DNA of 25,185 nt from positions 1 to 25,185 of the IMG/VR virus record IMGVR_UViG_3300012936_002527; one strand, given 5' to 3'. The stretch is from a virus. Position 1 is the first letter of the stretch, and every line of letters starts with the position of its first letter. This document shows, one piece after another, positions 4,887 through 20,408 of the stretch. The translations under genes were made by a program, and so were the position numbers. The notes below the pieces were generated by a model that was given only the letters and a program-made list of their open reading frames with translations, was not told the DNA's origin and did not search any database.

Positions 4887-4911
4887 AAAGACAATAGGAG
4901 TATATTAAACC

Positions 4912-5424: not shown

Positions 5425-5450
5425 TAAAAACGTAATATACTCCAAATATT

Positions 5451-5475: not shown

Positions 5476-5497
5476 ATTTCTACACCTATATCCATCG

Positions 5498-5505
5498 GAT
5501 AAATA
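5498..5505 (+). promoter_or_regulatory. Candidate T4-type late promoter (GATAAATA)
   Basis: GATAAATA lies just after the terminator and 32 bases before the halogenase ATG, with an AAAGGA ribosome-binding sequence between them. This is the only non-coding gap of any size before the 13-gene operon, so it is the natural place for its promoter. Confidence 0.6.
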
Positions 5506-5537: not shown

Positions 5538-7157
5538 ATGAAAATTAAAACAGTAACCATTGTTGGCGGCGGCTCTTCCGGTTGGATGACAGCAGCAGCA
5601 CTTTCTAAGTGTTGCCCACACTTAGACATTACACTAATTGAATCTAAAACAATTGGCACAGTTGGAGTGGGCGAAAGTACATTGGGGCATATTAATAGAT
5701 ATCTTCAAATGCTTGATCTTAAAGATGAAGATTGGATGCCTGCATGTAACGCAACATATAAGAACTCAATTCAATTTACAAACTTTAGAGAAAATAAAGG
5801 AGAAGTATTTCAATATCCGTTTAGTGATGGATTTGATTATACTGATAAGCCAGGTGGCATGGAAAACTGGAGACAGTTAGCAGCACTAAAACCTGATCAG
5901 TATACACCAGAAGAATTTGCAAGGTTCTTTTGTACAGGTAATACATTACTTGCTGAACAAAACAAGCAAACTAAAAACGAAGATGGTGTATTAAGAAACT
6001 TTAATTTTGCTTGGGATACTGCATATCATTTAGATGCAGCAGCATTTGGTCAATACTTAAAAGATAAAATTGCTATTCCTAACGGTGTAAAACATATATA
6101 TGGCGAAGTACATTCCCATATGAAAGACAATACACACAGTTACGTTACACAAGTATTATGTGCAGACGGAACTAAGTTAAACAGTGACTTGTATATTGAT
6201 TGTACAGGTTTTGCATCTATTATGTTAGAAGGTTGGATGGGTTCACACTTTATGAACTTTGAAAAACACTTAGCAAATGATAGAGCATGGGCGTGTAGAT
6301 TACCTTACACTGATAGAGAAAGACAAATGCACAACGTAACTGATTGCCATGCACTTGGTAATGGTTGGGTATGGAACATTCCTTTATGGAATAGAATTGG
6401 TACAGGGTATGTTTACTCAACAAGATTTACAACACCCGAAGCAGCAAAAGTAGAGTTTAGAAAACATCTTGCAGAAGCACATACACCAGAAATTGCTGAA
6501 GCAGCAGAAATGTTTGAAGTTAAAATTAGACATGGTTATAGACATAGAGCATGGAAAGGTAATGTAGTAGGTGTAGGACTTAGTTACGGATTTGTTGAGC
6601 CATTAGAATCAACAGGACTGTTAACTACACACGAAAATATTATTAAACTAGTTGATATATTAAACACAAGAGACGGCCATGTAACTAGAACTGAACGAGA
6701 AGGCTTTAACTTTTCTTGTGAATATGATGTTAAAAAGTTTAGAGACTTTGTATCACAACACTATGCATTCTCTATGAGAGAAGACACTCCATACTGGAGA
6801 TGGTGTTCTGAAATAAATGAATATGATCCGCTTATGCATTCAGATGAAATGCAAAAACATTCACAATATCCTGCTATGATTGGTAACATTGTGGGCGGAC
6901 ATGCATACGATGAAACATATACAGGAAATTGTTTTATTACAGCGGGAATGGGCATTAGAGCGACTGCTACACCTGAGTTAGTTTTACGAGGATCTAGTCG
7001 TAGATTCGAAGTAGATGTACAAGAGGAAATAGGTGCAGTTGATCGTATGTATCAACAGTATAAAAACTTTGTGTTGGATCATCTAGAGAATCTACCTAGT
7101 CATTATGAATACTTAAAAGAAAACATATATGGCGGTAAGGATGATTACAAGGATTAA
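5538..7157 (+). CDS. Flavin-dependent (tryptophan-type) halogenase, canonical copy
   Basis: A 539-residue member of the flavin-dependent halogenase family (Trp_halogenase type), which uses FADH2, O2 and halide to make a hypohalous species that halogenates an aromatic or electron-rich substrate. Visible motifs: FAD-binding GGGSSG (10-15), GVGES (43-47), a Lys in the position of the catalytic Lys (TYKNSIQF, K75), WVWNIP (277-282, the WxWxIP signature that discourages monooxygenase chemistry) and GFVEPLESTG with the expected Glu (E357). Length matches PrnA/RebH-like enzymes. Relatives occur in marine T4-like phages; VirX1 of cyanophage Syn10 is a characterised viral member. No flavin reductase is in the window. 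It is the first gene of a long operon, with an AAAGGA ribosome-binding site. Substrate cannot be read from the sequence. Confidence 0.92.
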   Translation: MKIKTVTIVGGGSSGWMTAAALSKCCPHLDITLIESKTIGTVGVGESTLGHINRYLQMLDLKDEDWMPACNATYKNSIQFTNFRENKGEVFQYPFSDGFDYTDKPGGMENWRQLAALKPDQYTPEEFARFFCTGNTLLAEQNKQTKNEDGVLRNFNFAWDTAYHLDAAAFGQYLKDKIAIPNGVKHIYGEVHSHMKDNTHSYVTQVLCADGTKLNSDLYIDCTGFASIMLEGWMGSHFMNFEKHLANDRAWACRLPYTDRERQMHNVTDCHALGNGWVWNIPLWNRIGTGYVYSTRFTTPEAAKVEFRKHLAEAHTPEIAEAAEMFEVKIRHGYRHRAWKGNVVGVGLSYGFVEPLESTGLLTTHENIIKLVDILNTRDGHVTRTEREGFNFSCEYDVKKFRDFVSQHYAFSMREDTPYWRWCSEINEYDPLMHSDEMQKHSQYPAMIGNIVGGHAYDETYTGNCFITAGMGIRATATPELVLRGSSRRFEVDVQEEIGAVDRMYQQYKNFVLDHLENLPSHYEYLKENIYGGKDDYKD

Positions 7158-7935
7158 AAAGTTTTTTAGTAAGAAAAAACCATCCATAAGGTTCTATAGT
7201 CTGTACCCAGGGGTTGCAGATATATTCCCTATTTTCCAAGCATCTAAATTACCAAGAGATTTTACAAAAAATCAACCACACCCATCGATTGAAAGATTAG
7301 AAGCTAATGTTGCAAAGTGTCCTGGAATACGTAAAGTTGCTATGACAGGATGGATAGTACCAGCACCAGCAGATTTTGTTATTAAAACAAATGGTGATGG
7401 AGTTAGTTTCGAATGGCGCGAACCACTTAGATTTGACAAAGAAATGCCAGGTACTGAATCATATATTATGATGCATACTGAAAGTCAAACTGTGCCTGTA
7501 CTTGATGATGTTAACAACACGTTAAGAACAACAGTGAAAGTAGAAACTCCTTGGAGAGTTGATGCTTCAGATGATATTGTATTGTTACAATTACCACTTA
7601 CATATGCTAATGAACCAAGGTTTACAGCAGCACACGGTATATTAGATCCAATGCAATCTCATGTAGTAAACTTACAACTGTTTTGGAATGTCTTAGAAGG
7701 AGAGACATTAATTAAAGCAGGAACACCTTTAGCCCAATACATTCCTATTAAAAGAAGTGAATTAGGTTATAGTGCGTACGATCATGAAGTTGCATCGCAA
7801 CCTAATGAAAACGACATACAGAGAGAAAAAGCGTATAATTATGCTGCTAACTGCTCTTTAATTGATAAAGATAATCTTGCGTCAAGATTGAAACGAGCAA
7901 AAGCAGTATTAACTAAGTATAAACACAAAGGATGA
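7129..7935 (+). CDS. Beta-rich conserved phage protein, DUF6065-like
   Basis: A 268-residue protein overlapping the halogenase end by 29 bases. An alternative start at 7141 (MITRIKKFF) would leave a 17-base overlap, and neither has a clear ribosome-binding site. The first 20 residues are very Lys-rich and probably flexible. The body has 'YPGVADIFPIFQASKLP', then 'KCPGIRKVAMTGWIVPAPADFVI', and near the end 'NLQLFWNVLEGETLIKAGTPLAQYIPI'. That succession resembles, from memory, DUF6065-type proteins found next to oxygenases in marine phages; the assignment is tentative. No HxD metal motif or other catalytic signature is visible, so it may be a binding or scaffold protein. It is the second gene of the halogenase/oxygenase operon. 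Confidence 0.6.
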   Translation: MAVRMITRIKKFFSKKKPSIRFYSLYPGVADIFPIFQASKLPRDFTKNQPHPSIERLEANVAKCPGIRKVAMTGWIVPAPADFVIKTNGDGVSFEWREPLRFDKEMPGTESYIMMHTESQTVPVLDDVNNTLRTTVKVETPWRVDASDDIVLLQLPLTYANEPRFTAAHGILDPMQSHVVNLQLFWNVLEGETLIKAGTPLAQYIPIKRSELGYSAYDHEVASQPNENDIQREKAYNYAANCSLIDKDNLASRLKRAKAVLTKYKHKG

Positions 7936-7939
7936 TACA

Positions 7940-8206
7940 ATGACAGAAAAAAATAACAGAATGTATATCACAAAGTTGGAAGCAGTTAAAGCTCAACTTC
8001 AAGCTGATATGACAAAAAATACTGAAGAACTTGCCAAATTAGAAGATGAGTTTGCTGATTTAAAATTAAATCCGTACGGAATTACTTCTATTGACTTTGC
8101 CAAAAGACAAGAACTATCAACAGATGTTCTTAAAATGGAAGGCACACTTATGGGTTTAGATTTAGCGATTGAAACCTATGAGGAAGAACATGGTAAGTCC
8201 GACTAA
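7940..8206 (+). CDS. Small coiled-coil protein (hypothetical)
   Basis: An 88-residue charged, helical protein with AAAGGA seven bases before the ATG. Residues about 10-45 (KLEAVKAQLQADMTKNTEEL, then AKLEDEFADLKL) have a heptad-like spacing of Leu/Val. A short turn (NPYGITSID) leads to a second helix (about 58-82), giving a helical-hairpin appearance. No enzymatic motif. It sits between the DUF6065-like gene and the first oxygenase and overlaps the latter's start. Possibly a small adaptor; function unknown. Confidence 0.65.
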   Translation: MTEKNNRMYITKLEAVKAQLQADMTKNTEELAKLEDEFADLKLNPYGITSIDFAKRQELSTDVLKMEGTLMGLDLAIETYEEEHGKSD

Positions 8207-8777
8207 TGAGGGAGGCATACACCTCTTTCCGCCTACAATTTGGAAATACAGTTATAACTTTCCATATGACGAAATAGAACAATCAATACAAGAAGTTTTT
8301 GATTCAGTTGAGAGAAATTCTAGTTTAGAAAAAGGCGCCGCCCTATCTACTGTAACTTTGCCTGAAAGACAGCAGCCCCACACTTGGGAAGAACTTGCTG
8401 AATTTCAAGAATGGCTAGGCATTAAGTTGACAGGAATAAAAGAAGAATTAAATTTTTACGAAAGACAATCTTCAGTAATTGGTTCTTGGTTTAATAGACA
8501 TTACAAGACAGGATATACTGAAGAGCATTGTCACAACTATAGTACGTTTGTAGCAAGTTGCTATATCAAATGCCCACCCGATAGCGGCAATATTGTTTTT
8601 AGAAATCCTTTAGAATATCACTTCTCAAACTTTCCTATAGTAAACGAAACACAAACATTGCAAGAAGTGCAATGTAAAACAGGAGATGTTATTATTTTTC
8701 CTAGTTGGTTAAAACACTTTGTTACAGAAAACAAAACAGACCAAGAAAGAATTGTAATGACTATTAATATTAAATAA
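8190..8777 (+). CDS. 2OG-Fe(II) oxygenase, 2OG-FeII_Oxy_5-like
   Basis: The start at 8190 (MVSPTNEGGIHLFPP) is chosen because GAGGA lies six bases upstream; an upstream ATG at 8169 would add seven residues with no such site. The 195-residue protein begins with the 'F/L-P-P-T-I-W' opening usual for this family. The core has H113-C-H115 followed by a beta strand, 'PPDSGNIVFRNP', then 'GDVIIFPSWLKH' with H176, and R187 in 'ERIVMTIN', the expected positions for iron and 2OG carboxylate binding. Members hydroxylate or otherwise oxidise unknown substrates. The H-C-H-N stretch is a variant of the H-x-H-x-N/S pattern, and ASCYIK replaces SGVYYL. It overlaps the preceding gene by 17 bases. Confidence 0.8.
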   Translation: MVSPTNEGGIHLFPPTIWKYSYNFPYDEIEQSIQEVFDSVERNSSLEKGAALSTVTLPERQQPHTWEELAEFQEWLGIKLTGIKEELNFYERQSSVIGSWFNRHYKTGYTEEHCHNYSTFVASCYIKCPPDSGNIVFRNPLEYHFSNFPIVNETQTLQEVQCKTGDVIIFPSWLKHFVTENKTDQERIVMTINIK

Positions 8778-9580
8778 TGGACTTTAAAATTTGTTATCCA
8801 GATGCAAACACTATCGATAGTGTTATAAAGGTAAAGTCCTTAGAGGACTTTAAAGCCGAGTACTTTGACTTAGGTGAAGGTATTGGATATTGGATTGCTG
8901 ATAATCCTTTTTATGATGACGGCTTTAATTTTTTTAAAGGCTTAGTAAAGTCTTTTCCTATTGTAAAAGATAACAATGCAGAAGGTAATTTAGATCCTAA
9001 TCCATTTGATACAATACATTTACCAGACTGGACATATAAAAATATATGTTTCTTATTGCGTGATTTTTATTTAAAAAATGTAGAAAGCAATATGTTTGAT
9101 CCGCAAATACATGAATGGGGTAATGTATATTACAAAGAAAGAGCTAAACCTATTAGTTGCTGGCGAATTCCGCATGTTGATTATCCTAAAGGTTTAGTAG
9201 GTAATTTATGGTTTACAGGACACGACTTAGTAGATTCTTGTACAAAACTTTACAAGTACGAAGGAACTGTAAAAGATAGTCTATACGATTTTCAAACAGA
9301 TAAAGATCATCCTATGTATGAGCGTTGGTCACAAATTGCAGATAATCCACAAAGAGCAGATGCTTGGTTCAATATGTCAGACGAAGAATTAGCACAATGG
9401 GGATTTAAGTATATGGGATCAGCGCCATCAATAGAAGGCAAAATGACAATGTATAGAGCAGATATTAGTCATGCAGCAGTTATTTCATCTAATGTAGATT
9501 TTAGATGGAGTCATACATTTGCATTTTCAGATGATTTTCCGCCTGAAGTTAGAATGGGCGACTTGGAGTTAAGGTTATGA
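8777..9580 (+). CDS. 2OG-Fe(II) oxygenase-like protein, long variant
   Basis: A 267-residue protein whose ATG overlaps the preceding stop (TAATG), so translation is likely coupled. A double-stranded beta-helix centre is suggested by H133-V-D135 in 'WRIPHVDYPKGLVGNLWFT', a distal H232 in 'RADISHAAVIS', and R243 in 'VDFRWSHTFAF', the HxD...H...R order of 2OG oxygenases. Between HxD and the distal His is an unusually long, acidic, Trp-containing insertion (about residues 150-225) that would form a lid or substrate loop. The first 110 residues are a separate helical and aromatic region. The specific subfamily is not recognised. Substrate unknown. Confidence 0.7.
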   Translation: MDFKICYPDANTIDSVIKVKSLEDFKAEYFDLGEGIGYWIADNPFYDDGFNFFKGLVKSFPIVKDNNAEGNLDPNPFDTIHLPDWTYKNICFLLRDFYLKNVESNMFDPQIHEWGNVYYKERAKPISCWRIPHVDYPKGLVGNLWFTGHDLVDSCTKLYKYEGTVKDSLYDFQTDKDHPMYERWSQIADNPQRADAWFNMSDEELAQWGFKYMGSAPSIEGKMTMYRADISHAAVISSNVDFRWSHTFAFSDDFPPEVRMGDLELRL

Positions 9581-10203
9581 TGAATATGGATATGTTCTTT
9601 CCTACTCCAGTTTGGTGGGAGCAAACAGAACTAGACAATACAGATATGCTAAAACTTTGTTATCAACTGCACAAAGAAGATGACAATGGAAGAGTATTAA
9701 GTAATCAAGGAGGCTGGCAATCAAAAGATTTTAGGCCTGATGCATACGAATCAATGAAACCATTGCACGATGCAATTATGCAACAAGCACATCAGTGTAT
9801 TAGAGATTACGGTTATTACGAAGAATATTGTTATCCTATAATGGAAAACTTTTGGTTTAATATTAACAAGCAAGGTAATACTAATTCGGTACATATACAC
9901 GATAATAGTTTTATATCTGGTGTGTACTATGTAAGTGCAAAGCCAGGACAGGGTAATTTAAATGTTTACAAAAATCATATGCAAGATTTTATTATTGCAT
10001 CAGCAGCACCAATGAAAAACTATACACCTATTAGTGCAGCAGCAATTGCTTATGAACCAGTATCAAGTAAATTAATATTGTTTCCAGGTTGGTTGCCGCA
10101 TGGTGTTGAAAGAAATACAACAGAAGAAGATAGAGTAAGTGTATCTTTTAATGTTAAATTAATAAGGACAGATGATGAACGACTTCAGCAGAAGAATACT
10201 TAG
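9577..10203 (+). CDS. 2OG-Fe(II) oxygenase, 2OG-FeII_Oxy_5 family
   Basis: A 208-residue protein overlapping the previous gene by four bases (ATGA). It has the textbook layout of this family: 'FFPTPVWW' at the start, 'FWFNINKQGNTNSVHIHDNSF' with H106-I-H108, then 'SGVYYVSAKPGQGNLNVY', then 'LILFPGWLPHGVERN' with H175, and R186 in 'EEDRVSVSFNV'. These are the expected iron and 2OG-binding residues. It is a paralogue of the oxygenases at 8190 and 19774 and the best conserved of the three. The last ten residues overlap the following gene in another frame. Predicted soluble dioxygenase; substrate unknown. Confidence 0.88.
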   Translation: MMNMDMFFPTPVWWEQTELDNTDMLKLCYQLHKEDDNGRVLSNQGGWQSKDFRPDAYESMKPLHDAIMQQAHQCIRDYGYYEEYCYPIMENFWFNINKQGNTNSVHIHDNSFISGVYYVSAKPGQGNLNVYKNHMQDFIIASAAPMKNYTPISAAAIAYEPVSSKLILFPGWLPHGVERNTTEEDRVSVSFNVKLIRTDDERLQQKNT

Positions 10204-10891
10204 CGAAACAAACTTAGCGTTTGAAGATAAGCCACACTTCTTTAAGAAGTTGCTTGACAATCCTAGCGAATTGGTTACTTGGCAAGATATTGAACAGCAC
10301 ACAAACAAAACAGAACGTTATAACTTTGAACTTATAAGTCCAGATAGCAGTAAAATTGAAATACCTGTTAGTAGAAAAAATTGGATTTATGATAGAGGTG
10401 TGCAAGATAAAGGTTTTATATTTGATAAAGTAAATGCTGGTTACGGATTAATCTGTTTAGATTACGGATTTCATAATCAAAAAACAATGGATTTTTTAAA
10501 CGTATTTGAAAATATGTTTAGTATACATGCTGCAATACATGTGTATTGTGGGCTAAAAGATTCTAAGTCTTTTACAATACATGATGATTATCCTTGTAAT
10601 TTTATTATTCAAGCAGAAGGAAAAACTAGATGGAAAGTGTATAAAAATAAAATTTCTTACATGCACAGAACAGGATTAATGAATGGTAAGTTACAAGATA
10701 AAGACATGGAAGTAGATATTGACGTAGAATTAGAACCGGGAGATGCATTATATATTCCCTCAAGACAGTATCATTGTGCATATCCTAAAGGCAAACGAAT
10801 ATCTCTAAGTATTCCATGCTGGCAGAAACTGCCAACAGAGCCTATGGAAAATGCAGTAGATAGAAATTATTATAGGATCAACAATGTTTAA
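10172..10891 (+). CDS. JmjC/cupin-type 2OG oxygenase-like protein
   Basis: A 239-residue protein starting inside the end of the preceding gene (32-base overlap), with AAGGA in 'aataaggacagATG'. The centre reads 'SFTIHDDYPCNFIIQAEGKTRWKVY' (H137 and D139), then 'LEPGDALYIPSRQYHCAYP' with H201. The H-x-D, Q-x-x-G-K-x-R-W and P-G-D-x-L-Y-I-P-x-x-x-x-H order is the signature of JmjC/cupin_4 proteins such as the ribosomal oxygenase RoxA, which hydroxylates a ribosomal-protein arginine. It is shorter than RoxA and seems to lack the C-terminal dimerisation and winged-helix parts. This is the operon member whose family most often acts on proteins. Its phage substrate is unknown. Confidence 0.82.
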   Translation: MMNDFSRRILSETNLAFEDKPHFFKKLLDNPSELVTWQDIEQHTNKTERYNFELISPDSSKIEIPVSRKNWIYDRGVQDKGFIFDKVNAGYGLICLDYGFHNQKTMDFLNVFENMFSIHAAIHVYCGLKDSKSFTIHDDYPCNFIIQAEGKTRWKVYKNKISYMHRTGLMNGKLQDKDMEVDIDVELEPGDALYIPSRQYHCAYPKGKRISLSIPCWQKLPTEPMENAVDRNYYRINNV

Positions 10892-11465
10892 ACCGATTGA
10901 AATAGAAAATGTAATCGAAAAAGATTACCAAAAACAAATATTTGATGTAGTGACTGATATCACTTTTGATTGGCATTTTATGGAAGATACAACATTTGAA
11001 AAGAAGGATACTCTTAATACATCTACACCTAGTTTTGCAAATCTAGTATATCATCCTAACAATAAAGAAAATCCAGGATTAGAATTTTTTACTCCGTTGT
11101 TACAGAATACTTGTGCAAAAGCAGGTTTAGAACTAGACCAACTGTTACGTATGCGCTTAGGCTTTTTACTTAATACAAAGTATATGATGCCGCATGTAAG
11201 ATATCAGCATAACACACCGCATGTAGATTTTGAAGTAGATCATTATACTGCATGTTACTATGTTAATGAGTGTGATGGTGAAACTGTTGTATTTCACGAA
11301 ACAGAAGAGGCAGAAAAATACAAGCCTCTGCATAAAAGTATGCCACAGCAAGGTAAAGTACTAGTATTCAACGGAAGAAACTATCATGCAAGTACATGTC
11401 CTAAGATGTTTACAAAAAGGATTGTAATGACTATGAACTTTACAGCGAGACAAATAGATGGATAA
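10884..11465 (+). CDS. 2OG-Fe(II) oxygenase (paralogue of the 12668 gene)
   Basis: A 193-residue protein, start overlapping the preceding gene by eight bases. Metal and cosubstrate residues are clear: H113-V-D115 in 'NTPHVDFEVDHYTACYYVNE', a strand 'CDGETVVFHE', then 'PQQGKVLVFNGRNYHAS' with H168, and R179 in 'KRIVMTMNF'. This is a complete HxD...H...R set. Architecture and phrase order (HxD - YYVN(E/D)CDG(E/D)T - F-x-G-x-x-Y-H) closely match the gene at 12668, so the two are paralogues flanking the DUF6445-like pair. Predicted soluble dioxygenase; substrate unknown. Confidence 0.85.
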   Translation: MFKPIEIENVIEKDYQKQIFDVVTDITFDWHFMEDTTFEKKDTLNTSTPSFANLVYHPNNKENPGLEFFTPLLQNTCAKAGLELDQLLRMRLGFLLNTKYMMPHVRYQHNTPHVDFEVDHYTACYYVNECDGETVVFHETEEAEKYKPLHKSMPQQGKVLVFNGRNYHASTCPKMFTKRIVMTMNFTARQIDG

Positions 11466-12165
11466 AGAGCAGTATATAAACGAATTACTAGAGCGTGACA
11501 AACAATCTAGTTCTCGTATTGTTTCTCAAAATCTAAAAGATAGATTTACATATCCTTACCTACCTACTATGGTAGTTGATAATTTTTATGAAGAGCCTGA
11601 TCAAGTAAGAGAATATGCACTTAGTTTAGAATACTTTAAAGGTGATAGAGGAAGTTGGCCGGGTGTAAGAACTAAACTGTTTCATGAATTTGATCAAAAA
11701 AGTTTAGACTTTTTTAGTAAAAAATTATTAGTATATCTTAAAGATTATGGTTATACAGGATTTGACGAAATACAAACAGCGTTTCATAGTACACCAGAAT
11801 CATACACACGTGGCTGGGTACACGACGATGATCCTAAATTAAATGTAGCAGGAGTTGTATACTTAAACAAAGAAGCACCTCAAGGAACAGGAACAGTAAT
11901 ATACGAAGATATGGATTTTGATGGTGGCAAATATGCAGAAGTGTTTATGCAAGATGTATTAGATGTTCCAGCAAAAGAAAAAGAAGAATTTAATCAAATA
12001 CGCGAAGCACAAGTTGCAGAATTTAAAAAGACAGTAACAATGGAAAGTGTATATAACAGAGCTATTATTTTTGATACTAGGCTTTGGCATAGTCCTGAAT
12101 ACTTTTATGGTAATACTATTAAAGACTCAAGGCTTACACAAGTATTTTTTGCGAGGGCAATATGA
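11458..12165 (+). CDS. DUF6445-like 2OG oxygenase-fold protein
   Basis: A 235-residue protein overlapping the preceding gene by eight bases. Near residue 39 it has 'VVDNFYEEPDQVREYAL', followed by 'WPGVRT', the opening that characterises DUF6445-type proteins. A probable oxygenase site follows: H122-D-D124 in 'GWVHDDDPKLNVAGVVYLN', H211 in 'TRLWHSPEYFYG' and R225 in 'DSRLTQVFF'. Between 150 and 195 is a helical insert rich in Glu/Lys. All three cosubstrate/metal positions are present, so it is predicted active. It is followed directly by a shorter paralogue lacking these residues. Confidence 0.78.
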   Translation: MDKEQYINELLERDKQSSSRIVSQNLKDRFTYPYLPTMVVDNFYEEPDQVREYALSLEYFKGDRGSWPGVRTKLFHEFDQKSLDFFSKKLLVYLKDYGYTGFDEIQTAFHSTPESYTRGWVHDDDPKLNVAGVVYLNKEAPQGTGTVIYEDMDFDGGKYAEVFMQDVLDVPAKEKEEFNQIREAQVAEFKKTVTMESVYNRAIIFDTRLWHSPEYFYGNTIKDSRLTQVFFARAI

Positions 12166-12671
12166 TTAGAAATATTACACAACCTGTAAAAGTTATTGAC
12201 AACTTCTTTGAGCAGCCTTGGCTAGTAGAACATCATGCAAATAAACAAGAGTTTGTTGACCAAGATAATTCTGTTTTTCCAGGATCACGTTCAGCAACAC
12301 TAGATGAACTTGATATAGATATGTTTGAAAGATTACTAGGTAAACTTATTAAACATGTGCTTGGTAAAGAAATGTTTACATTCTTACATTGCGAATATCA
12401 AAAAATGAATGAAAGATGTATTGATCAAATTAAACAAATCAGCACACAAGCAAATATTGCTGGTACAGTATTTTTAACAGAAAACACCGAACTAGATTCT
12501 GGTATTTGTTTTTATGATAATAAACATAATCCTACAATAAACATAGAAAATGTTTACAACAGATGTGTACTATGGGATCCTAAAGAACATTATAAAATTC
12601 TAAAATACAAACCAAATACACTTATGTTAACGTTTTACGGAACAGCAGTACAGAGGTATCCAACACAATGA
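12162..12671 (+). CDS. Shortened DUF6445-like paralogue lacking the metal site (probable pseudoenzyme)
   Basis: A 169-residue protein joined to the preceding gene by ATGA. It shares the family opening ('KVIDNFFEQPWLVEHHA', then FPGSRS), the strand 'NIAGTVFLT' and the closing 'RCVLW ... LMLTFYG', so it is a paralogue of the gene at 11458. Aligned on those strands, the HxD motif is replaced (K91-Q-I93), the distal His is replaced by D139 (LWD for LWH), and the Arg by T153; the last two keep the same 14-residue spacing. The helical insert is also lost. The reading frame is intact, so it is not an obvious pseudogene. It probably keeps a structural, regulatory or partner role without Fe/2OG catalysis. 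Confidence 0.7.
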   Translation: MIRNITQPVKVIDNFFEQPWLVEHHANKQEFVDQDNSVFPGSRSATLDELDIDMFERLLGKLIKHVLGKEMFTFLHCEYQKMNERCIDQIKQISTQANIAGTVFLTENTELDSGICFYDNKHNPTINIENVYNRCVLWDPKEHYKILKYKPNTLMLTFYGTAVQRYPTQ

Positions 12672-13279
12672 CAAATGATATTTTAATACTTGATGATGTA
12701 ATTCCTAAAGATTATTCAGACCATATTAGAACATTATTAACTGGGTGGGAATTTGGTTGGGTCTTTAATCAGAACATGGTTTCTCCTGATGCAGAACTAC
12801 AAGGTGAAAGCAATCATGCAGGTTTTAATCACTTCTTTTACGAAAAACAACAAGCAGTAAGCCAACACTTTAATTTTATATATCCGCTTGTTTTAAGCAT
12901 TACTAGTGCGTCTAAGACGCCGTATAACAGGTTAATACGCATGAGAGCTAACTTGACCCTACCTAACAAAACAAGCACGTTAGAATACCATATGCCGCAC
13001 ATAGACAGCTTCTTTGAACATTGGAATGCAATTTATTATGTAAACGATTGTGACGGTGATACTATTATTTTTAATGAAACAAATGATACTTATGATCCTG
13101 GTACTGATGATATTATGCGTATCAAAGAGAACAAGTTTACAATTAAAGAACGTGTTACACCTAAGCAAGGTAGAGTAGTTGTATTCCCAGGAAAGTATTA
13201 TCATACTAGCAGTTATTGTAAAGATTCTGCATATAGAGCTGTTATTAACATTAATTTAGATAGGGTTCAACTAGGATGA
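12668..13279 (+). CDS. 2OG-Fe(II) oxygenase (paralogue of the 10884 gene)
   Basis: A 203-residue protein joined by ATGA to the previous gene. Catalytic set: H111-I-D113 in 'EYHMPHIDSFFEHWNAIYYV', then 'NDCDGDTIIFNE', then 'PKQGRVVVFPGKYYHTSS' with H179, and R190 in 'AYRAVININL'. The order and wording match the oxygenase at 10884, with a longer loop (about residues 137-163) between the two halves of the barrel. The loop is rich in Asp and Lys and probably shapes substrate entry. Predicted active soluble dioxygenase; substrate unknown. Confidence 0.85.
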   Translation: MTNDILILDDVIPKDYSDHIRTLLTGWEFGWVFNQNMVSPDAELQGESNHAGFNHFFYEKQQAVSQHFNFIYPLVLSITSASKTPYNRLIRMRANLTLPNKTSTLEYHMPHIDSFFEHWNAIYYVNDCDGDTIIFNETNDTYDPGTDDIMRIKENKFTIKERVTPKQGRVVVFPGKYYHTSSYCKDSAYRAVININLDRVQLG

Positions 13280-13833
13280 GCGAATACTACTTACACCAAA
13301 GTCAATATATAATCGAGAATAAGACTCAGATTTTTGATCATTTAGATAACGCACATGGTGTTTTTAAGAAAATATTTTCTGATAATAATGACAGCACATG
13401 GTCATATAATTTGTACAATGTGTTTGCACTAACTGCACCTAGCACTATTTTTTATAACATATATAAAGAGCTTGGAACATTTGTAAGAAGTAATATAGGT
13501 GATGATCGACCACTGTGGATACAAGCATGGTTAAACTATCATAGACCAGATGAATGCTTAACACGACACGGACACGAATTTGATTGGCACGGATATATTA
13601 GCATTGATCCTAAAAGTACACAAACTATATTTGATAATTGGACTATTGATAACAAGCCAGGTCAAATATATTTAGGACCAGGACATGCTGAACACGAAGT
13701 TAAAGTACTAGAACCATATGAAGGTTATAGAACAACAATAGGGTTTGATGTACATTCAATACCAAATAATTCTTTTATTAGAAATTATGAAGAAAGACCT
13801 TTTGGTAATATGGGGTTAATGCCACTGCTATGA
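13276..13833 (+). CDS. 2OG-Fe(II) oxygenase-like protein
   Basis: A 185-residue protein joined by ATGA to the previous gene. The core 'WIQAWLNYHRPDECLTRHGH' followed by EFDWHGYISIDPKSTQTIF contains H98-G-H100 and a nearby HGY. 'GQIYLGPGHAEHEVKVLEPY' then supplies the distal His (H137 or H140), and R152 (YRTTIGFDV) fits the 2OG carboxylate position. The 'HGYISID' plus 'IYLGPG...H.V' combination recurs in oxygenases of marine T4-like phages, as I recall it. The H-x-H in place of H-x-D is a family variant rather than obvious decay. Substrate unknown. Confidence 0.75.
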   Translation: MSEYYLHQSQYIIENKTQIFDHLDNAHGVFKKIFSDNNDSTWSYNLYNVFALTAPSTIFYNIYKELGTFVRSNIGDDRPLWIQAWLNYHRPDECLTRHGHEFDWHGYISIDPKSTQTIFDNWTIDNKPGQIYLGPGHAEHEVKVLEPYEGYRTTIGFDVHSIPNNSFIRNYEERPFGNMGLMPLL

Positions 13834-14456
13834 TAGAAGATTACAAAATTATACGAGGCGCAGTATCAACAGAACTCTGCGAATTTCTTGCATTAGAGTA
13901 CGAAATGATGGAAGAAGTTTGTAAAGTATTGTATGCTGGTGCCGACTTATCTGACCTTGAAGAAAACACTTTTGCGAGATACGCTCCCTTGATGTTTGAA
14001 ACATTGATGGTAAAACTAAATCCTTTGGTTGCAAAAGAATGGGGTCATGAGTTAGTGCCAGTGTACTCTTATGCTAGGATATATTATAAAGGTTCGCAAC
14101 TTAAAAAACACTTTGACAGACCTAGCTCTGAAGTATCAGTATCAGTTGCAATATCAAAAGAACCAGAATACAATTGGCCAATATACATTAAAAATGAAGA
14201 TGGTGTTGAACACGAGATTAATTTAGATGTTGGTGATATTGTTATATACAGTGGACGTAGGCACGAACACTGGAGAAACCCGTATGAGGGTAACAAAGTA
14301 GTACAAGCGTTTCTACAGTACGTAGAAGCCGATGGACCATATTCACATTTAAAATGGGATACGAAACCAGCATTAGGACTTCCTGCAGAATTTGTTCGTC
14401 AAGAGATAAAAGACGAAGTGCAGAATGTTAAAGATATGCTTGGATTTAAGCGTTAA
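13830..14456 (+). CDS. 2OG-Fe(II) oxygenase, prolyl-4-hydroxylase-like fold
   Basis: A 208-residue protein joined by ATGA, last gene of the plus-strand operon. It has 'YARIYYKGSQLKKHFDRPSS' with H94-F-D96, then 'INLDVGDIVIYSGRRHEHWR' with the distal His (H145 or H147), then K156 in 'NKVVQAFLQYV'. A Lys rather than Arg for 2OG binding is normal in P4H-like enzymes. The N-terminal 45 residues are helical and the last 30 charged. Its stop codon abuts the stop of the convergent small gene with no base between them and no visible terminator. Confidence 0.82.
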   Translation: MIEDYKIIRGAVSTELCEFLALEYEMMEEVCKVLYAGADLSDLEENTFARYAPLMFETLMVKLNPLVAKEWGHELVPVYSYARIYYKGSQLKKHFDRPSSEVSVSVAISKEPEYNWPIYIKNEDGVEHEINLDVGDIVIYSGRRHEHWRNPYEGNKVVQAFLQYVEADGPYSHLKWDTKPALGLPAEFVRQEIKDEVQNVKDMLGFKR

Positions 14457-14615
14457 TTAGTCGCTGACTTTAGTAGGGCCTGCAACGATTTTTGCTGGAC
14501 CGTGACGCTCTTCAAAGATTTTTGCCGCTGCTTCTTTACTTGGTGCTTCACAAGTGTCCTGAGTAATAGGCGCTTTACCTACCTCTTTTCTAATAATCAT
14601 TTTGTAAGTTGCCAT
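14457..14615 (-). CDS. Small 52-residue phage protein
   Basis: An ATG at 14615 opens a 52-codon frame on the minus strand, ending with TAA at 14457. The protein starts MATYKMIIRKEVGKAPITQD and continues to 'APSKEAAAKIFEERHGPAKIVAG', a beta-beta-alpha-beta-like pattern with an amphipathic helix (about 26-37). AGGAG lies upstream at suitable distance and a GATAAATA motif 22 bases before the start. It is the last gene of the minus-strand operon, 21 bases after the halogenase. Coding potential is supported by the ribosome-binding site, the motif and exact abutment with the opposing gene. Function unknown; such tiny A/K/E-rich proteins are common in T4-like phages. Confidence 0.7.
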   Translation of the reverse strand: MATYKMIIRKEVGKAPITQDTCEAPSKEAAAKIFEERHGPAKIVAGPTKVSD

Positions 14616-14636
14616 ATTTGTATAACTCCTATATCT

Positions 14637-16181
14637 TTATTTATCAATATTCTTAATCCATTCATCGATTGTCCAGAATGGAGCCACAAGCTCTTTGTAG
14701 CGTTTTACGTTAGTATTTAGCACGTTTCTGCCTGTTTCAAGTTTATCTTCAAATGCAGTGCTAAAGTATGTGTTAGGAAATATATGTAATCCCTGTATTA
14801 CTTGCATCCATGCTGCTGGCGAATAACCGTTAAAAACAGGCTCTACACCAACAAGTCCTTTCCAATAATGATCCCAGTCTTTTAGTTTCATTGCTAATGA
14901 TTCTGGAATACGTTCTGGGTCATGTATATGACTTTTCCAGAAGTCTGTGTCATCTCTACGTCCTCTAAAATGCAATGCAATAAAGTCTTTAATATCTTCA
15001 TAAACTGTATTAACTCTATGATTAAATCTATCTCTGTACAGCGTGTGATCTCTTCTAGTAGGATCCCACAAATCTTGCATAGCATACAGTGACTCGCAAA
15101 TAACTGCAATACCGTTTGCTTCTAATGGTTCTAAGAAACCACTGCTTAATCCAATTGCAAAAACATTATTTTTCCAACTTTCTTTTGCTACTTCAGGTGT
15201 GTATGTAAATGAAGCAATAGGTTCGATATGTTCACCACATACACTTCTTGCTTCCTCTAATGCTTGGTCTGCTGTAATATAATTGTTGTCATAAATGTAA
15301 CCATTACCAGATCTGTGTTGCAAATTAATATTCCAACGCCAACCATATTTCATTGCTGTTGCATTTGTTGTTACTGAATACTTGGGTTCGTCCCACCATG
15401 CAATAACAGAGTTGTGTGTAAAATGATCTGAGTAATCAGAGTATTCTGCTCCTAATTTTTTTCTAATTAGTAACTGTGCAAATCCAGTACAATCAACAAA
15501 CCATTCTCCTTCAATTTCTCTGTTATCATCTAAAATTAAAGTTGTTATATCACCTTTATCATTTTGTTTGGCATCTACGTATGTGCCTTCAATCAATGTA
15601 ATATCTCTTTTAAGAGCCACTTCTTTCAAGTATGCTGCTGTTGCTCTACTCTCATTGTGCCACATAGCAATAATTGGTAGTTCTGATTTAGAAGCACCAA
15701 ACGGGACTTTATTTTCTTTAATAAAATAGTTTGCATAGAATGCATCTGCTAACGGAACATTATTACCTAGCAGTGTAGCCTGATATAAATTCTTTTGCCT
15801 TTCAGCTGCTATTATACCGGTAAATTGTCCTAAGTTCATATTAAAGACATTAGCGTCAGGATTGTCTGACCAGCCATCTAACCAAGGTGCATAATCTGTT
15901 TGCAAACAATGAATAAATTCACTACCTGCTCCTGACCAATCTTTAAAACGTCCACCTAGTTTTGGTGTAGCATTTGCTTTAGCAACAAAGTCATTAAAAT
16001 CAATATCAAGATACTTTAACATATCAACAAATGTAGTTGTACCGCTTTCACCAGCAATAATAGGTGGCTTATTAGGATCTTCAACAACAGTAATATTCAT
16101 ACTAGGTCTTGTCTTTTTTATTAGTAGTGCAGTTAACCAGCCTGCAACGCCGCCGCCTAATATAACTGTATTAGAGTTCAT
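14637..16181 (-). CDS. Flavin-dependent halogenase-like protein, divergent copy A
   Basis: A 514-residue FAD-dependent protein of the Trp-halogenase family, overlapping the upstream halogenase gene by 11 bases. It keeps the FAD motif GGGVAG (9-14), AGES (43-46), a Lys in the catalytic position (ATPKLGGRF, K74) and the Glu of the active site (GFLEPLEANG, E354). The signature motif is changed to WRWNIN (281-286; Pro replaced by Asn), and the halide-binding S-T-G after the Glu is A-N-G. It may still halogenate, or may have shifted to flavin oxidation. It is the least similar of the four copies in the visible motifs. Substrate unknown. Confidence 0.85.
   Translation of the reverse strand: MNSNTVILGGGVAGWLTALLIKKTRPSMNITVVEDPNKPPIIAGESGTTTFVDMLKYLDIDFNDFVAKANATPKLGGRFKDWSGAGSEFIHCLQTDYAPWLDGWSDNPDANVFNMNLGQFTGIIAAERQKNLYQATLLGNNVPLADAFYANYFIKENKVPFGASKSELPIIAMWHNESRATAAYLKEVALKRDITLIEGTYVDAKQNDKGDITTLILDDNREIEGEWFVDCTGFAQLLIRKKLGAEYSDYSDHFTHNSVIAWWDEPKYSVTTNATAMKYGWRWNINLQHRSGNGYIYDNNYITADQALEEARSVCGEHIEPIASFTYTPEVAKESWKNNVFAIGLSSGFLEPLEANGIAVICESLYAMQDLWDPTRRDHTLYRDRFNHRVNTVYEDIKDFIALHFRGRRDDTDFWKSHIHDPERIPESLAMKLKDWDHYWKGLVGVEPVFNGYSPAAWMQVIQGLHIFPNTYFSTAFEDKLETGRNVLNTNVKRYKELVAPFWTIDEWIKNIDK
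14638..14645 (-). promoter_or_regulatory. Candidate T4-type late promoter (GATAAATA, minus strand)
   Basis: GATAAATA on the minus strand covers the last codons and stop of the halogenase and precedes the 52-residue gene by 22 bases. It could give this small gene its own late transcript. Because it coincides with coding sequence (Asp-Lys-stop), chance cannot be excluded. Confidence 0.4.
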
Positions 16182-17676
16182 GGTTTACCTCCAAGTAACG
16201 ATCTTTTAATATGTTTAATGCTTCTCGATGTGTGTAAATTTTTTCATCTGGCCAATCTGCTAATTGTTTTTTCATTAAATTTGTTAAACTTTCATTGTGT
16301 CTTTCTGCAAAATTTTCTTCCCAAAACTTTTTACAAGCGTCATAATCAAAAAGATGTAAGCCGTGCATAACTTGTATCCAATTAAGATAACTGAACATAA
16401 GAGACGGATCAACAAAATGTCCTGAATTAGGATAAGCAGTTTTAAATGACTGTAGTGTTTCTTCGTTGAATGGTGTTAGAACAATACCTTCATCACACCA
16501 ACGCCAAAACTCTGAGTCGTTACGTTTTGTAAGATAATGTATCTGAATAAAGTCAATAATGTTAGTAGCAATTAAATTCATTCTTTCATTAAATCTTTTT
16601 GCAACAGTATCATCATTTTTTCTATAGTACAATAAATTACCTACAAGTATATTAACTTGTTGTATTGTTGAACCTATTGATGTTGCTTCTAAAGGTTCTA
16701 CAAACATAGCACTAAGCCCTAATGATACACAATTCTTTGTCCAAAATTCATTAACATATCCAGCATTAAATTTTACACGTTTACCTATTTCTAAATCTTT
16801 AATACCTAAATGCTTTTCATAGTGCTGCGATACTTCATCATATGCTTGTGTTTCGTTAATAAATTGATCACTAAACACATAACCATTTCCATATCTATCT
16901 TGTGTAGGAATTCTCCAACACCAACCACTGCTTAGTGCAGTTGCTTCTGTATAAGATGGTATGTCTTCAGTTCTAGCAGTAGGAAATGCAATAGCACTAT
17001 TCATAGGAAGTTGATGTCCACAGTCTATCCATTTTTGTCCTAGTTTACTTGATATAACTCTATTGAAACCACTACAATCAATAAAGAAATCACTAGCATG
17101 TTTTACACCTGCTTCATCAACTAGCTCTTTAACATTACCTGTTTCATCTAAAATCACATCTGCAATATCAACATCTAATACTTCAATACCTCTTTCTATG
17201 CATAGACGTGTAAAGAAGTCATTTAATTTATTTGTATCAAAATGGTATTGAGCAAAACTATCATGAAAAGGTTCAGCATGTAAACTACTAGCAGTTCTTT
17301 TCCAAACAGTATCAATAGGATCCCAATTTTCAGCAATCATTCTCATCCATTGAACAGGTGCTTCACTAAGTGGATCTAGTGCTGCAAACTGTTCTGTTAA
17401 ACTATGAAAATAATGTTTCCCATCTCCTTGCCAATTAGTAAACTTAATACCAATTTTAAATGTTGCCCCTGTTTCTCTAACAATTGTTGGCACATCGATA
17501 TCAACATGGTGCATAAATTTTGACCAGTGTTCTGTACTACCTTCACCAACGCCAATAATACCAATCTTACTTGATCTTAAAAGTTTTAATTTTAATAGAG
17601 GGTGGGATTTTCTAAGTGTTAGTGCTGCAACTAATCCACTTGTTCCGCCACCTAATATTGTTAGAGATTTTATCAT
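16171..17676 (-). CDS. Flavin-dependent halogenase-like protein, divergent copy B
   Basis: A 501-residue family member, overlapping the upstream gene by four bases (ATGA). Motifs: GGGTSG (9-14), GVGEGSTEHW (42-51), catalytic-position Lys in ATFKIGIKF (K74), full WCWRIP (252-257), and FVEPLEATSIG with E330. The ESTG of canonical enzymes is EATS here, so the halide-side residues differ while Lys and Glu remain. It is closest to the neighbouring copy C, sharing GVGEGSTEHW, 'LPMNSAIAF', 'GNGYVFSDQFI' and 'WIQVMHGL'. This indicates a tandem duplication. Predicted FADH2-dependent halogenase with altered specificity; unproven. Confidence 0.87.
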   Translation of the reverse strand: MIKSLTILGGGTSGLVAALTLRKSHPLLKLKLLRSSKIGIIGVGEGSTEHWSKFMHHVDIDVPTIVRETGATFKIGIKFTNWQGDGKHYFHSLTEQFAALDPLSEAPVQWMRMIAENWDPIDTVWKRTASSLHAEPFHDSFAQYHFDTNKLNDFFTRLCIERGIEVLDVDIADVILDETGNVKELVDEAGVKHASDFFIDCSGFNRVISSKLGQKWIDCGHQLPMNSAIAFPTARTEDIPSYTEATALSSGWCWRIPTQDRYGNGYVFSDQFINETQAYDEVSQHYEKHLGIKDLEIGKRVKFNAGYVNEFWTKNCVSLGLSAMFVEPLEATSIGSTIQQVNILVGNLLYYRKNDDTVAKRFNERMNLIATNIIDFIQIHYLTKRNDSEFWRWCDEGIVLTPFNEETLQSFKTAYPNSGHFVDPSLMFSYLNWIQVMHGLHLFDYDACKKFWEENFAERHNESLTNLMKKQLADWPDEKIYTHREALNILKDRYLEVNHEL

Positions 17677-19160
17677 AACTTATAGGTAGTCCTTCCTTTT
17701 AATGTTTCTATTGCTTCTCTACATTTCATCCAGCCGTTACCTGGAGTTTGTGGTAGCATAGATAATCGTGCTACATCTTCTGCACGATATTTACTATAAC
17801 GCTCATTATATAATTTTTTAATGCTAGGAACATCAAACATACGCAAACCATGCATAACTTGTATCCAATTTAAATTATCGTAAATTCTAAAACTTCCGTG
17901 CATACCGTCTTCGGGTAATAATATTTGATTTACAAATTGTTTTTTAAAATTTTCTAAGTTTTGTTTATTGAAAGGAGTAATTTCTATATCATTTTTACAC
18001 CAACGCCAAAACTTTGAATCTTCTCTTTGTGTAAAATAATGCAGTTGAATAAAGTCTAACACATTACTTAAACAGTCATCAAATATTCTATTGTATTCAT
18101 TTATAGTTGCTTGATCGCCACGTTCCCAAGATGCTAGTGCAGCAACTAATGCTCTTGATTGTTGTATAGTTGTTGAAATACTACTTGCTTCTAAAGGTTC
18201 TACAAAGTTACTACTAAGTCCAATGCTAACACAGTTCTTAATCCAAAATTCATTAACTTTACCTGAAACAAAATTAATTTTTCTACCTATATTAATTGTG
18301 TCTGAAAACAATGTTTGTATTTCTGCTACGGCTTCGTCTTCAGAAATAAATTGATCACTAAACACATAACCGTTACCAAAACGTTCTTGTACAGGGCTGC
18401 GCCAATGCCAACCAGCACTTAATGCTTTAGAAAGTGTGTAAGGTGGAATCTCTTCTTGACGTGGTGTTTGAAAAGCAATAGCACTATTCATAGGTAAAAA
18501 TGCTGACCAGTCTACCCATTCAGCACCTAGTTTACTTGCAATAACTCTTTTGAATCCACTGCTGTCAATAAAAAAGTCTGCATTATAAACGTATCCGTGT
18601 ACATCAACTACTGAGTCTACAAATCCTCCGTCACCAATATTAACATCTACAACTTCTGTAGTAACAACTCTAATACCTGCTTCAATGCATCTCTTTTCTA
18701 AAAATGCATTTAATTTTTCACTATCAAAATGGAACTGATAGTAATCTTCAAACGGTGGACTTACATATCCTTGCATAGGTAAATCCCAATGCAACGATTC
18801 AGAGTCAACACCTTCTGAAATTAATCTCATTAATGTATGTGCATCGCCTGTGTATGCATCTGCGAATACATATGGTTCTGCTAAACTGTGATAGTAACTG
18901 GTTTTGTCACCGTGCCAATCTTCAAACTTAATACCAATTTTAATAGTTGCACCACACTCTTTTGCAAGATCAGTCATTGTAATACCTACTGCATCAGCAA
19001 ATCTTCTCCAGTGTTCTGTACTACCTTCGCCAACACCGATAGTTCCAATTTTATCAGATTTAATAAGTGTAATGTCTAAGTTGTCAATAGACTTTTTATG
19101 ATATAGTGCAGTCATTAGTCCAGCATTACCACCACCTAGCACAAGTAATTTATTAATCAT
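17673..19160 (-). CDS. Flavin-dependent halogenase-like protein, divergent copy C
   Basis: A 495-residue family member, ATGA-joined to the upstream oxygenase. Motifs: GGGNAG (9-14), GVGEGSTEHW (42-51), Lys in ATIKIGIKF (K74), WHWRSP (251-256, Ile of WxWxIP replaced by Ser) and FVEPLEASSIS with E324 (canonical ESTG replaced by EASS). Paired features with copy B (LPMNSAIAF, FGNGYVFSDQFIS, LNWIQVMHGL) show recent common ancestry. Both catalytic-position residues are kept, so halogenation remains possible, but the halide pocket is altered. It lies in the middle of the minus-strand operon. Confidence 0.86.
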   Translation of the reverse strand: MINKLLVLGGGNAGLMTALYHKKSIDNLDITLIKSDKIGTIGVGEGSTEHWRRFADAVGITMTDLAKECGATIKIGIKFEDWHGDKTSYYHSLAEPYVFADAYTGDAHTLMRLISEGVDSESLHWDLPMQGYVSPPFEDYYQFHFDSEKLNAFLEKRCIEAGIRVVTTEVVDVNIGDGGFVDSVVDVHGYVYNADFFIDSSGFKRVIASKLGAEWVDWSAFLPMNSAIAFQTPRQEEIPPYTLSKALSAGWHWRSPVQERFGNGYVFSDQFISEDEAVAEIQTLFSDTINIGRKINFVSGKVNEFWIKNCVSIGLSSNFVEPLEASSISTTIQQSRALVAALASWERGDQATINEYNRIFDDCLSNVLDFIQLHYFTQREDSKFWRWCKNDIEITPFNKQNLENFKKQFVNQILLPEDGMHGSFRIYDNLNWIQVMHGLRMFDVPSIKKLYNERYSKYRAEDVARLSMLPQTPGNGWMKCREAIETLKGRTTYKL

Positions 19161-19774
19161 TTCTTTTCCTTAGTGTGTACTTCTAAACTTGCAACTGAAT
19201 CTGTTGCTAAATTAAAATTTATGTCGCCATATGGCATTGTATTAAAACTTATAATGTATCTATCTTTTTCTCCGAAGTGTGGGGTTGAACTATGAAATAA
19301 CCAACTAGGAAATAAAACAAGTTTTCCAGGCTCAGCTTCACTAAACCAGTGTGGACTATAATCATGTCTAAGCACTTCTAGTTGTGCTTCTGTTCTGTGC
19401 TTAACAGGATCTTCAAATACTGTTGCAGCACCTTCAGTAAGATAATATACACCACTTAAAAAACTCATAGAGTGTCTGTGGTATTGTAAACGCATACCTT
19501 CTCTGGGCAATGCTCTATTAAACCAACTGCTTGTAATTTTAAATCCATCGCAGTCAAATTTTTGTTGTTCATGAACTTGCTTTATACAATCGTTAATCCA
19601 TGAAAACAAAGGTTGCAATTCTTTTTTATCATGCAAGTTTCTCATTGAGCTAAGTGTTTCTGATTGCTTTACATGATCTGCATACTGTTCACACAAAGGA
19701 ATCAATGAATTGTTGTCTAATTCAGTGTTGCGGAATTCAAATATCTCAGTAGGAAACGTTGGTATTACTTTCAT
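19157..19774 (-). CDS. 2OG-Fe(II) oxygenase, 2OG-FeII_Oxy_5 family
   Basis: A 205-residue protein whose start codon shares a base with the preceding stop (TAATG). Family layout is clear: 'IPTFPTEIFEF' at the start, 'LQYHRHSMSFLSGVYYL' with H99-R-H101, 'GAATVFEDP', then 'KLVLFPSWLFHSSTPH' with H161, and R172 in 'DRYIISFN'. These are the expected iron and 2OG positions. It is a paralogue of the plus-strand genes at 8190 and 9577. It lies directly upstream of the halogenase trio and is probably co-translated with them, which ties oxygenation and halogenation to one transcript here. Confidence 0.88.
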   Translation of the reverse strand: MKVIPTFPTEIFEFRNTELDNNSLIPLCEQYADHVKQSETLSSMRNLHDKKELQPLFSWINDCIKQVHEQQKFDCDGFKITSSWFNRALPREGMRLQYHRHSMSFLSGVYYLTEGAATVFEDPVKHRTEAQLEVLRHDYSPHWFSEAEPGKLVLFPSWLFHSSTPHFGEKDRYIISFNTMPYGDINFNLATDSVASLEVHTKEKK

Positions 19775-20352
19775 TAAAACTCAACCCAGCCTGTTAAAAG
19801 ATATTTTTCACCACTTAGTGGCGGATTGCCTCTGTGAGTATGGGTGTAACCTGCAGGCCAAACAACTAGTGTACCTTCTGTAGCAGCAATACGCTTCTTC
19901 TGATACAACCATTCTGTTTCACCTCCTTCGTCGACTGTGTTAAGATACAATCCCCATGCTGCAATTCTACTTGATCTTTCTTTGGTATCTGATTCAAAGT
20001 GCCAAGTATGATATCCTTCCCCAGGAAGAGTTTTTTGGAGTTTCATAAAATAAACTCTGTGATCACCACATTCGCCTAATACACTATAATGTGCTGTATA
20101 CTGTTTCCAACAATCAATAAATCTATTCATAAAAATATGCACAGTAGGATTATCTGTTGACATATTTAAGGCTGGTTGCTCAAGAAGAAATGCAGCATTG
20201 TCTGCTTTGTTGTGTGCTGAATTATCACCCAAAGTTTGACGACTAGCAGTTAAATGCAAGTCGTTCAATTTTTCGTAGTATTCAATAAGTGTAGCACATT
20301 CTTCAGGTCTCATAACGCCTGTCCATGTTGCAATATCGTTCTCTATAATCAT
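19774..20352 (-). CDS. 2OG-Fe(II) oxygenase, P4H/2OG-FeII_Oxy_3-like
   Basis: The start at 20352 (MIIENDIATWTGVMRPEECATL) is preferred. An ATG at 20445 would add 31 Cys/Phe-rich residues and run back through the divergent promoter region. The 192-residue protein has 'GEGYHTWHFESDTKERSSRI' with H118-F-E120 (HxE rather than HxD), 'LYLNTVDEGGETEWLY', then 'EGTLVVWPAGYTHTHRGNPP' with the distal His (H171 or H173), and K183 in 'EKYLLTGWV'. This order fits the P4H-like branch, where Glu and Lys variants are tolerated. It is the first gene of the minus-strand operon. A CATAAATA motif lies only five bases before the ATG, so its transcript may be nearly leaderless. Confidence 0.83.
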   Translation of the reverse strand: MIIENDIATWTGVMRPEECATLIEYYEKLNDLHLTASRQTLGDNSAHNKADNAAFLLEQPALNMSTDNPTVHIFMNRFIDCWKQYTAHYSVLGECGDHRVYFMKLQKTLPGEGYHTWHFESDTKERSSRIAAWGLYLNTVDEGGETEWLYQKKRIAATEGTLVVWPAGYTHTHRGNPPLSGEKYLLTGWVEF

Positions 20353-20357: not shown

Positions 20358-20365
20358 TATTTATG
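20358..20365 (-). promoter_or_regulatory. Candidate T4-type late promoter (CATAAATA, minus strand)
   Basis: CATAAATA on the minus strand, five bases before the start of the first oxygenase of the minus-strand operon. It is one half of a divergent promoter pair in the 86-base intergenic region 20353-20438. The short distance would give a leaderless or very short-leader mRNA. Confidence 0.5.
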
Positions 20366-20400: not shown

Positions 20401-20408
20401 GATAAATA
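20401..20408 (+). promoter_or_regulatory. Candidate T4-type late promoter (GATAAATA)
   Basis: GATAAATA on the plus strand, 30 bases before the fibre gene at 20439 and 35 bases from the divergent minus-strand motif. A GGAAG ribosome-binding-like sequence lies between it and the ATG. It fits late expression of a virion protein. Confidence 0.6.

Follow-up and report, generated by a model that had tools for sequence, protein, structure and literature searches.

Why marine phages carry halogenases together with many 2-oxoglutarate (2OG) oxygenases is an open question, and the published answers point to host metabolism. We examined it in IMG/VR virus record IMGVR_UViG_3300012936_002527, a DNA of 25,185 nt (hereafter the window), in which positions 5538-20352 form an island of halogenase and oxygenase-fold genes that a first-pass annotation had read as a pathway. 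We find that these enzyme genes and three upstream tail-fibre tip genes, GR1-GR3, belong to one conserved collinear unit. From the sequences involved, we put the probability that the enzymes hydroxylate the tip, and probably also halogenate it, at roughly 0.5. The features on which the argument draws are the following:

2300-3151, plus strand: GR1, glycine/histidine-rich tail-fibre tip protein, conserved upstream of H1 (PF21722, 2.6e-9; phrog_863, 2.5e-49)
3167-4024, plus strand: GR2, tip paralogue, 58-63% identical to GR1/GR3 (PF21722, 2.1e-7)
4026-4880, plus strand: GR3, tip paralogue and proposed substrate (PF21722, 1.1e-8; AlphaFold model compared with 7ypx)
4880-4886, plus strand: ATAAATA late-type promoter motif before 4912
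4912-5424, plus strand: small protein, probably a factor for tail-fibre assembly, placed between GR and H1 in every case (phrog_1787, 1.5e-21)
5450-5476, plus strand: intrinsic terminator-like hairpin and T run, seen in the sequence, with the same layout in many relatives
5499-5505, plus strand: ATAAATA late-type promoter motif before H1
5538-7157, plus strand: H1, VirX1-type flavin-dependent halogenase (PF04820, 2e-104; VirX1 6QGM, phmmer 1.6e-192)
7129-7935, plus strand: U1, dUTPase-like beta-clip fold (phrog_7084; AlphaFold model)
7940-8206, plus strand: U2, protein of 88 amino acids, conserved in position
8178-8777, plus strand: O1, 2OG-FeII_Oxy_5-type (PF13759, 6.5e-18; H120xH122...H183...R194, numbered from the TTG at 8169)
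8777-9580, plus strand: O2, oxygenase-fold (phrog_1644, 6.8e-21; H133xD135...H232...R243)
9577-10203, plus strand: O3, 2OG-FeII_Oxy_5/TIGR02466 (PF13759, 5.4e-24; TIGR02466, 1e-31)
10172-10891, plus strand: J4, JmjC protein (PF08007, 7.1e-18; NO66, 1.2e-7; L16 Arg hydroxylase, 1.4e-4)
10884-11465, plus strand: O5, oxygenase (phrog_274, 1.5e-31; H113xD115...H168...R179)
11458-12165, plus strand: D6, DUF6445 oxygenase-fold (PF20043, 8.1e-15; H122xD124...H211...R225)
12162-12671, plus strand: D7, DUF6445 homologue without metal motif (PF20043, 1.6e-6)
12668-13279, plus strand: O8, oxygenase (H111xD113...H179...R190)
13276-13833, plus strand: O9, oxygenase-fold (phrog_2696, 3.9e-39; H98/H100...H140...R152)
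13830-14456, plus strand: O10, oxygenase (phrog_2954, 4.2e-50; H94xD96...H147)
14457-14615, minus strand: open reading frame of 52 amino acids, separating the two enzyme operons and preceded by a late-type promoter motif of its own
14637-16181, minus strand: H2, halogenase placed by tree in a second phage clade (PF04820, 2.7e-87)
16171-17676, minus strand: H3, halogenase, sister of H4 with 45% identity (PF04820, 6.9e-97)
17673-19160, minus strand: H4, halogenase of the P-SSM2-type clade by tree (PF04820, 1.1e-105)
19157-19774, minus strand: O11, 2OG-FeII_Oxy_5-type oxygenase (PF13759, 4.3e-16)
19774-20352, minus strand: O12, prolyl-4-hydroxylase-like oxygenase (PF13640, 1.2e-9; prolyl 4-hydroxylase 3itq, 0.0017)
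20358-20364, minus strand: ATAAATA late-type promoter motif before O12
20402-20408, plus strand: ATAAATA late-type promoter motif before the fibre gene at 20439

As the first-pass annotation had stated, the island holds four halogenase homologues, all intact and all passing Pfam PF04820 (E-values 1e-87 to 1e-105), and twelve oxygenase-fold genes, ten on the plus strand (O1-O10, 8178 to 14456) and two on the minus strand (O11, O12). The oxygenase-fold calls were made with Pfam PF13759, PF13640, PF08007 and PF20043 and with PHROGs 81, 274, 61, 1644, 2696 and 2954. The ATGA coupling is also there, with overlaps at O2/O3, D6/D7, D7/O8, O8/O9 and O9/O10 and, on the minus strand, at H3/H4 and H4/O11. 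That gene inventory was correct in its main content and overlooked the minus-strand gene at 14457-14615. Position 5538, taken as the island's edge, is not where the conserved unit starts; it begins at the tail-fibre tip genes (2300-5424), which had been missed.

The order GR1-GR2-GR3, small protein, H1, U1, U2, O1, O2, O3, J4, O5, D6, D7, O8, O9, O10 recurs in dozens of IMG/VR contigs, which usually continue with minus-strand H2, H3, H4, O11 and O12. As it recurs so widely and is kept from 98% down to ~40% amino-acid identity, the order is more than chance. We surveyed H1 loci from 80 of at least 593 H1 contigs. Among the loci with enough flanking sequence, 57 had GR upstream and at least three oxygenases downstream, four had neither, and none was discordant (Fisher 1.9e-6 for all loci and 2e-5 for 30 non-redundant lineages plus the four, values which overstate independence because the loci are related to each other). 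A search seeded with GR found a halogenase within 2.5 kb in 94/94 proper GR loci; six distant GR-like loci had neither halogenase nor oxygenase row. The order of GR, small protein, H1 and oxygenases, with three to ~ten oxygenases per cassette, is also present in nine isolates (S-CREM1, syn9, Sf-FR1, S-WAM1, P-TIM40, S-RIM44, P-RSM6, S-SZBM1 and Sf-FP1). Strong GR matches were seen in 9 of 25 T4-like isolate genomes, picked partly by halogenase content, with H1 directly downstream each time, and in 0 of 10 controls. A nucleotide search for isolates matching the window gave no match. Tips, small protein and enzyme row form one conserved collinear unit, and the scattering in relatives that the first-pass annotation had named as an argument against joint function was not found across these contigs and loci.

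Such linkage could arise without any joint function if tail-fibre and accessory genes merely hitch-hike in a shared plastic region. The region is a known hypervariable cluster (PMC7029224), and GR and the enzymes could be inherited as a single recombination block. We nevertheless regard a mere hotspot as very doubtful in view of the perfect 57/4/0 and 94/94 associations, the strict order, and the recurrence in two genomic surroundings and two phage lineages; nor did the GR loci surveyed include one with the enzyme row lost or replaced.

The two lineages are cyanophages and unrelated jumbo-type T4-like phages. The capsid protein of the four-halogenase contigs is 66-72% identical to that of the jumbo T4-like phages PA5oct, GAP32 and Phosso, and 31-33% identical to that of a cyanophage contig. 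A neck protein from a contig with fibre genes 96-97% identical to those of the window, has its best match in PA5oct-type phages, and psbA was not detected in the large four-halogenase contigs (up to 265 kb; possibly incomplete). Between the two groups the cassette proteins are 30-61% identical (H1 53-61%, J4 54-55%, U1 46-49%, GR ~50%). In the H1 tree, H1 of the window groups with S-CREM1, syn9 and a cyanophage contig (G008) at 100/99, apart from other cyanophages. Since this tree mixes both lineages and identity in the cassette reaches 61% where the capsid proteins share 31-33%, we conclude that all or much of the block was transferred as one piece from one T4-like phage lineage to another, unrelated one.

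The core of T4-type late promoters is ATAAATA. All six copies of this motif in the window are on the strand of the gene that follows, no more than 60 nt upstream of its start (p 1.7e-9, a somewhat flattering value because the motif was chosen after viewing intergenic sequences). They precede the small protein, H1, the 52-amino-acid gene, O12 and the fibre genes at 20439 and 23809, that is, both enzyme operons as well as virion genes, and we infer that the enzyme operons are transcribed late. TATAAATA, also considered as a promoter motif, has no copy in the window; the shorter ATAAATA is the informative form. The terminator and motif before H1 are found in many relatives (T run in 32/40 spacers, ATAAATA in 24/40), and in the cyanophage contigs checked the gap between small protein and H1 is 40-50 bases, without terminator or motif.

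Late-type promoters fit poorly with the drawdown of 2OG that has been suggested for cyanophage 2OG enzymes in general (PMC3037559), by which the oxygenases would drain host 2OG and alter nitrogen signalling, with the halogenases as unrelated passengers. This would leave the halogenases unexplained, and a conserved order of about a dozen distinct enzymes is unnecessary for consuming 2OG. Moreover, 2OG genes occur in 25/25 genomes surveyed, yet the oxygenase row only with GR tips. We consider drawdown highly improbable here.

Tip linkage, late-type promoters and lineage transfer together make the virion tip, or else its receptor, a likelier target than a host metabolite. What stands of the proposed pathway is thus a joint conserved set as opposed to independent gains, while its framing with an open substrate does not; among the substrates that had been listed (host metabolite, surface glycan or lipid, protein), protein becomes the favoured option and the host metabolite is disfavoured.

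The halogenases themselves have the sequence features of flavin-dependent halogenases of the VirX1/PrnA family, and halide incorporation is predicted for all four. H1, which matches VirX1 over its full length, has conserved G10-G15 (GxGxxG), K75, W277/W279 and E354/E357, with conserved equivalents in the alignment of H2-H4. The catalytic Lys, Glu and WxW pair are kept throughout; the full WxWxIP occurs in H1 and H3 only, with WRWNIN in H2 and WHWRSP in H4. By tree, H1 falls in the VirX1 clade and H2-H4 in another phage clade with P-SSM2 and HTVC008M, H3 and H4 being sisters; the four are not one family expansion. Because the best cellular relative of H1 has 36% identity, there is no bacterial template cluster for it. 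In one genome (G001:C1:55881-57281) the H2 match lies in two separate pieces.

Bacterial homologues of these enzymes tailor small molecules, and the phage set could likewise tailor a host metabolite such as a toxin, antibiotic or signal. A halogenated metabolite or capsule decoration has been proposed for the ten-gene cluster of the S-SSM6a group, which has a halogenase and 2OG enzymes (PMC7824862), and the S-CREM1 halogenase has been interpreted as antibiotic protection (PMC9964418). The block, however, contains no recognised scaffold-making, activating, transfer or transport enzymes, lacks the carbamoyl- and methyltransferases of the former cluster, and follows the tips in both unrelated phage lineages, which makes a small-molecule pathway quite unlikely.

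A metal motif and a distal basic residue are conserved in 11/12 oxygenase-fold genes, as HxD/E in O2, J4, O5, D6, O8, O10 and O12 and as HxH in O1, O3, O9 and O11. HxH is the usual form among the PF13759-type members here, and its conservation suggests that these four may have a three-histidine metal site. The exception is D7, which has lost the HxD triad, as have 9 aligned rows, and is therefore not counted as an active oxygenase; it looks like a DUF6445 copy minus the metal site, retained in several relatives, and may partner D6. Among solved structures, J4 comes closest to protein His/Arg hydroxylases (NO66, L16 Arg hydroxylase) and O12 to prolyl 4-hydroxylases, while D6 had no match. The labels of PHROGs 274, 2954 and 1644 ('DNA endonuclease V', 'ferrochelatase', 'minor coat protein') are misleading, as they fall on oxygenase-fold proteins, in the window O2, O5, D6, D7, O8 and O10 and likewise in cyanophage records. 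For U1, the AlphaFold model (predicted local distance difference test, pLDDT, 89.8) resembles dUTPase 3ecy (E-value 1.7e-4, template modelling score 0.72 by target), a modelled likeness at the level of the fold.

GR1-GR3 are assigned as glycine-rich tail-fibre tips on the PF21722 profile together with the predicted fibre fold: the GR3 model, of moderate confidence (mean pLDDT 69.5), matches the cyanophage Pam3 fibre 7ypx (E-value 1.1e-7). For a host-recognition tip the sequence is unusually constant, with nine invariant His across 45 rows of 58-89% identity to GR3, and residues 236-267 are highly conserved yet have pLDDT below 50. Enzyme-linked tips share Glu134 (67/67), Tyr167 (67/67), Asn192 (66/67) and His197 (66/67), whereas the four non-redundant enzyme-free homologues have none of the first three and His197 once. 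Glu143 and His250 also set the two apart, while the structural residues Phe179, Trp109 and Asn211 are common to both. The second GR copy of S-CREM1 (L201) reads with five internal stops.

Modification of the tip is favoured because enzyme-linked tips carry distinct conserved residues and because J4 and O12 resemble protein hydroxylases. The island would then be the enzyme half of a tail-fibre-tip cassette, its products acting late in infection on GR proteins made in the same cell. The 2OG and JmjC enzymes would hydroxylate side chains of the conserved His/Asn/Pro/Arg-rich glycine scaffold, and H1-H4 would halogenate an aromatic residue with reduced flavin supplied by the host. As a guess, Tyr167 is the best candidate for halogenation, and His197, Asn192 and the 236-267 loop are candidates for hydroxylation. 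The outcome would be a virion with a chemically finished receptor-binding tip. Tentatively, and as a possibility short of the probable, these phages may use a dedicated enzyme set, with as many as four halogenases and a dozen oxygenases, to build halogenated, multiply hydroxylated receptor-binding tips, and exchange the whole between lineages as one cassette.

Several points weigh against modification of the tip. The enzyme-free comparators number just four, and binding of receptor or metal may by itself account for the conserved GR residues. GR residue content follows oxygenase number weakly and without specificity for His (rho 0.37 for His, 0.54 for Pro, 0.61 for Phe), for which reason the correlation is not used as support. 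Twelve oxygenases are a large number for a single small domain, and the enzymes of the jumbo-type group are set apart from the tips by a terminator and a promoter of their own. A lone H1-type halogenase is found in S-H35 and S-MbCM6 (elsewhere in both) and in L079, and Sf-CH11 has a halogenase and oxygenases between other adhesin-like genes, without GR. VirX1, the H1 homologue of Syn10, a syn9 relative, has reportedly been characterised as an enzyme acting on small substrates.

Nearly as good an account of the tip linkage is that adhesin and receptor change together: a host glycan, lipid or protein would be oxidised and halogenated, blocking re-adsorption of progeny or excluding rivals. Late expression is compatible with this, and the island's position is that of the host-recognition cluster, flanked by tail fibres and neck genes; the glycosyltransferases that pelagimyophages have there have been read as surface modifiers (PMC7029224). 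Yet the block has no recognised glycosyltransferase, lipid enzyme or membrane protein. Proteins are also the substrates of the closest relatives of J4 and O12 with solved structures, and enzyme-linked tips have extra invariant residues in common. We therefore hold receptor modification to be unlikely, though worth keeping in mind beside modification of the tip.

Elsewhere in the window, two fibre genes flank one for a subtilase-family S8 protease (22182-23786; PF00082, 4.9e-29); in some relatives (L112) it is swapped for a more distant protease. Other contigs (L147, L135, L146) have a Nudix gene and a second U1-like gene to the right of the minus operon, before the neck genes. An Rfam scan of the window gave no match and, except for the subtilase fold, an anti-phage defence library gave weak generic matches only.

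Halogenases, 2OG oxygenases and the host-recognition cluster are each already known separately. We found no published link of phage halogenases or hydroxylation to tail fibres in the open-licence literature, and as far as that literature shows, what is new is that the enzymes have a fixed link to a single tip family in both phage lineages. If the tip is indeed the target, host recognition would depend on chemistry beyond the twenty amino acids, sequence would not suffice for understanding receptor-binding tips, and there would be a natural substrate for VirX1-type enzymes; since syn9, Syn10 and S-CREM1 are isolates, this is open to direct test. The closest known locus is that of syn9 (Kyanoviridae), which has GR tips, small protein, halogenase, U1, U2 and oxygenase row in the same order but two halogenases instead of four and no adjacent minus-strand H2-H4-O11-O12 block. 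NO66/MINA53, the bacterial L16 Arg hydroxylase and the prolyl 4-hydroxylases are alike to J4 and O12 in sequence, if remotely (1e-7, 2e-3). The S-SSM6a-group cluster (Iyer et al., 2021, PMC7824862) also places a phage halogenase beside 2OG and cupin-fold hydroxylases, but includes carbamoyltransferases, methyltransferases and phosphatases, none of which Pfam or PHROGs detected in the window. Finally, the host-recognition cluster of pelagimyophages and cyanomyophages (PMC7029224) resembles the island as a variable tail-fibre region adjoining neck genes; it is marked by variability and glycosyltransferases, whereas the oxidising enzymes of the island make up a constant set, kept in order and linked to a single tip family.

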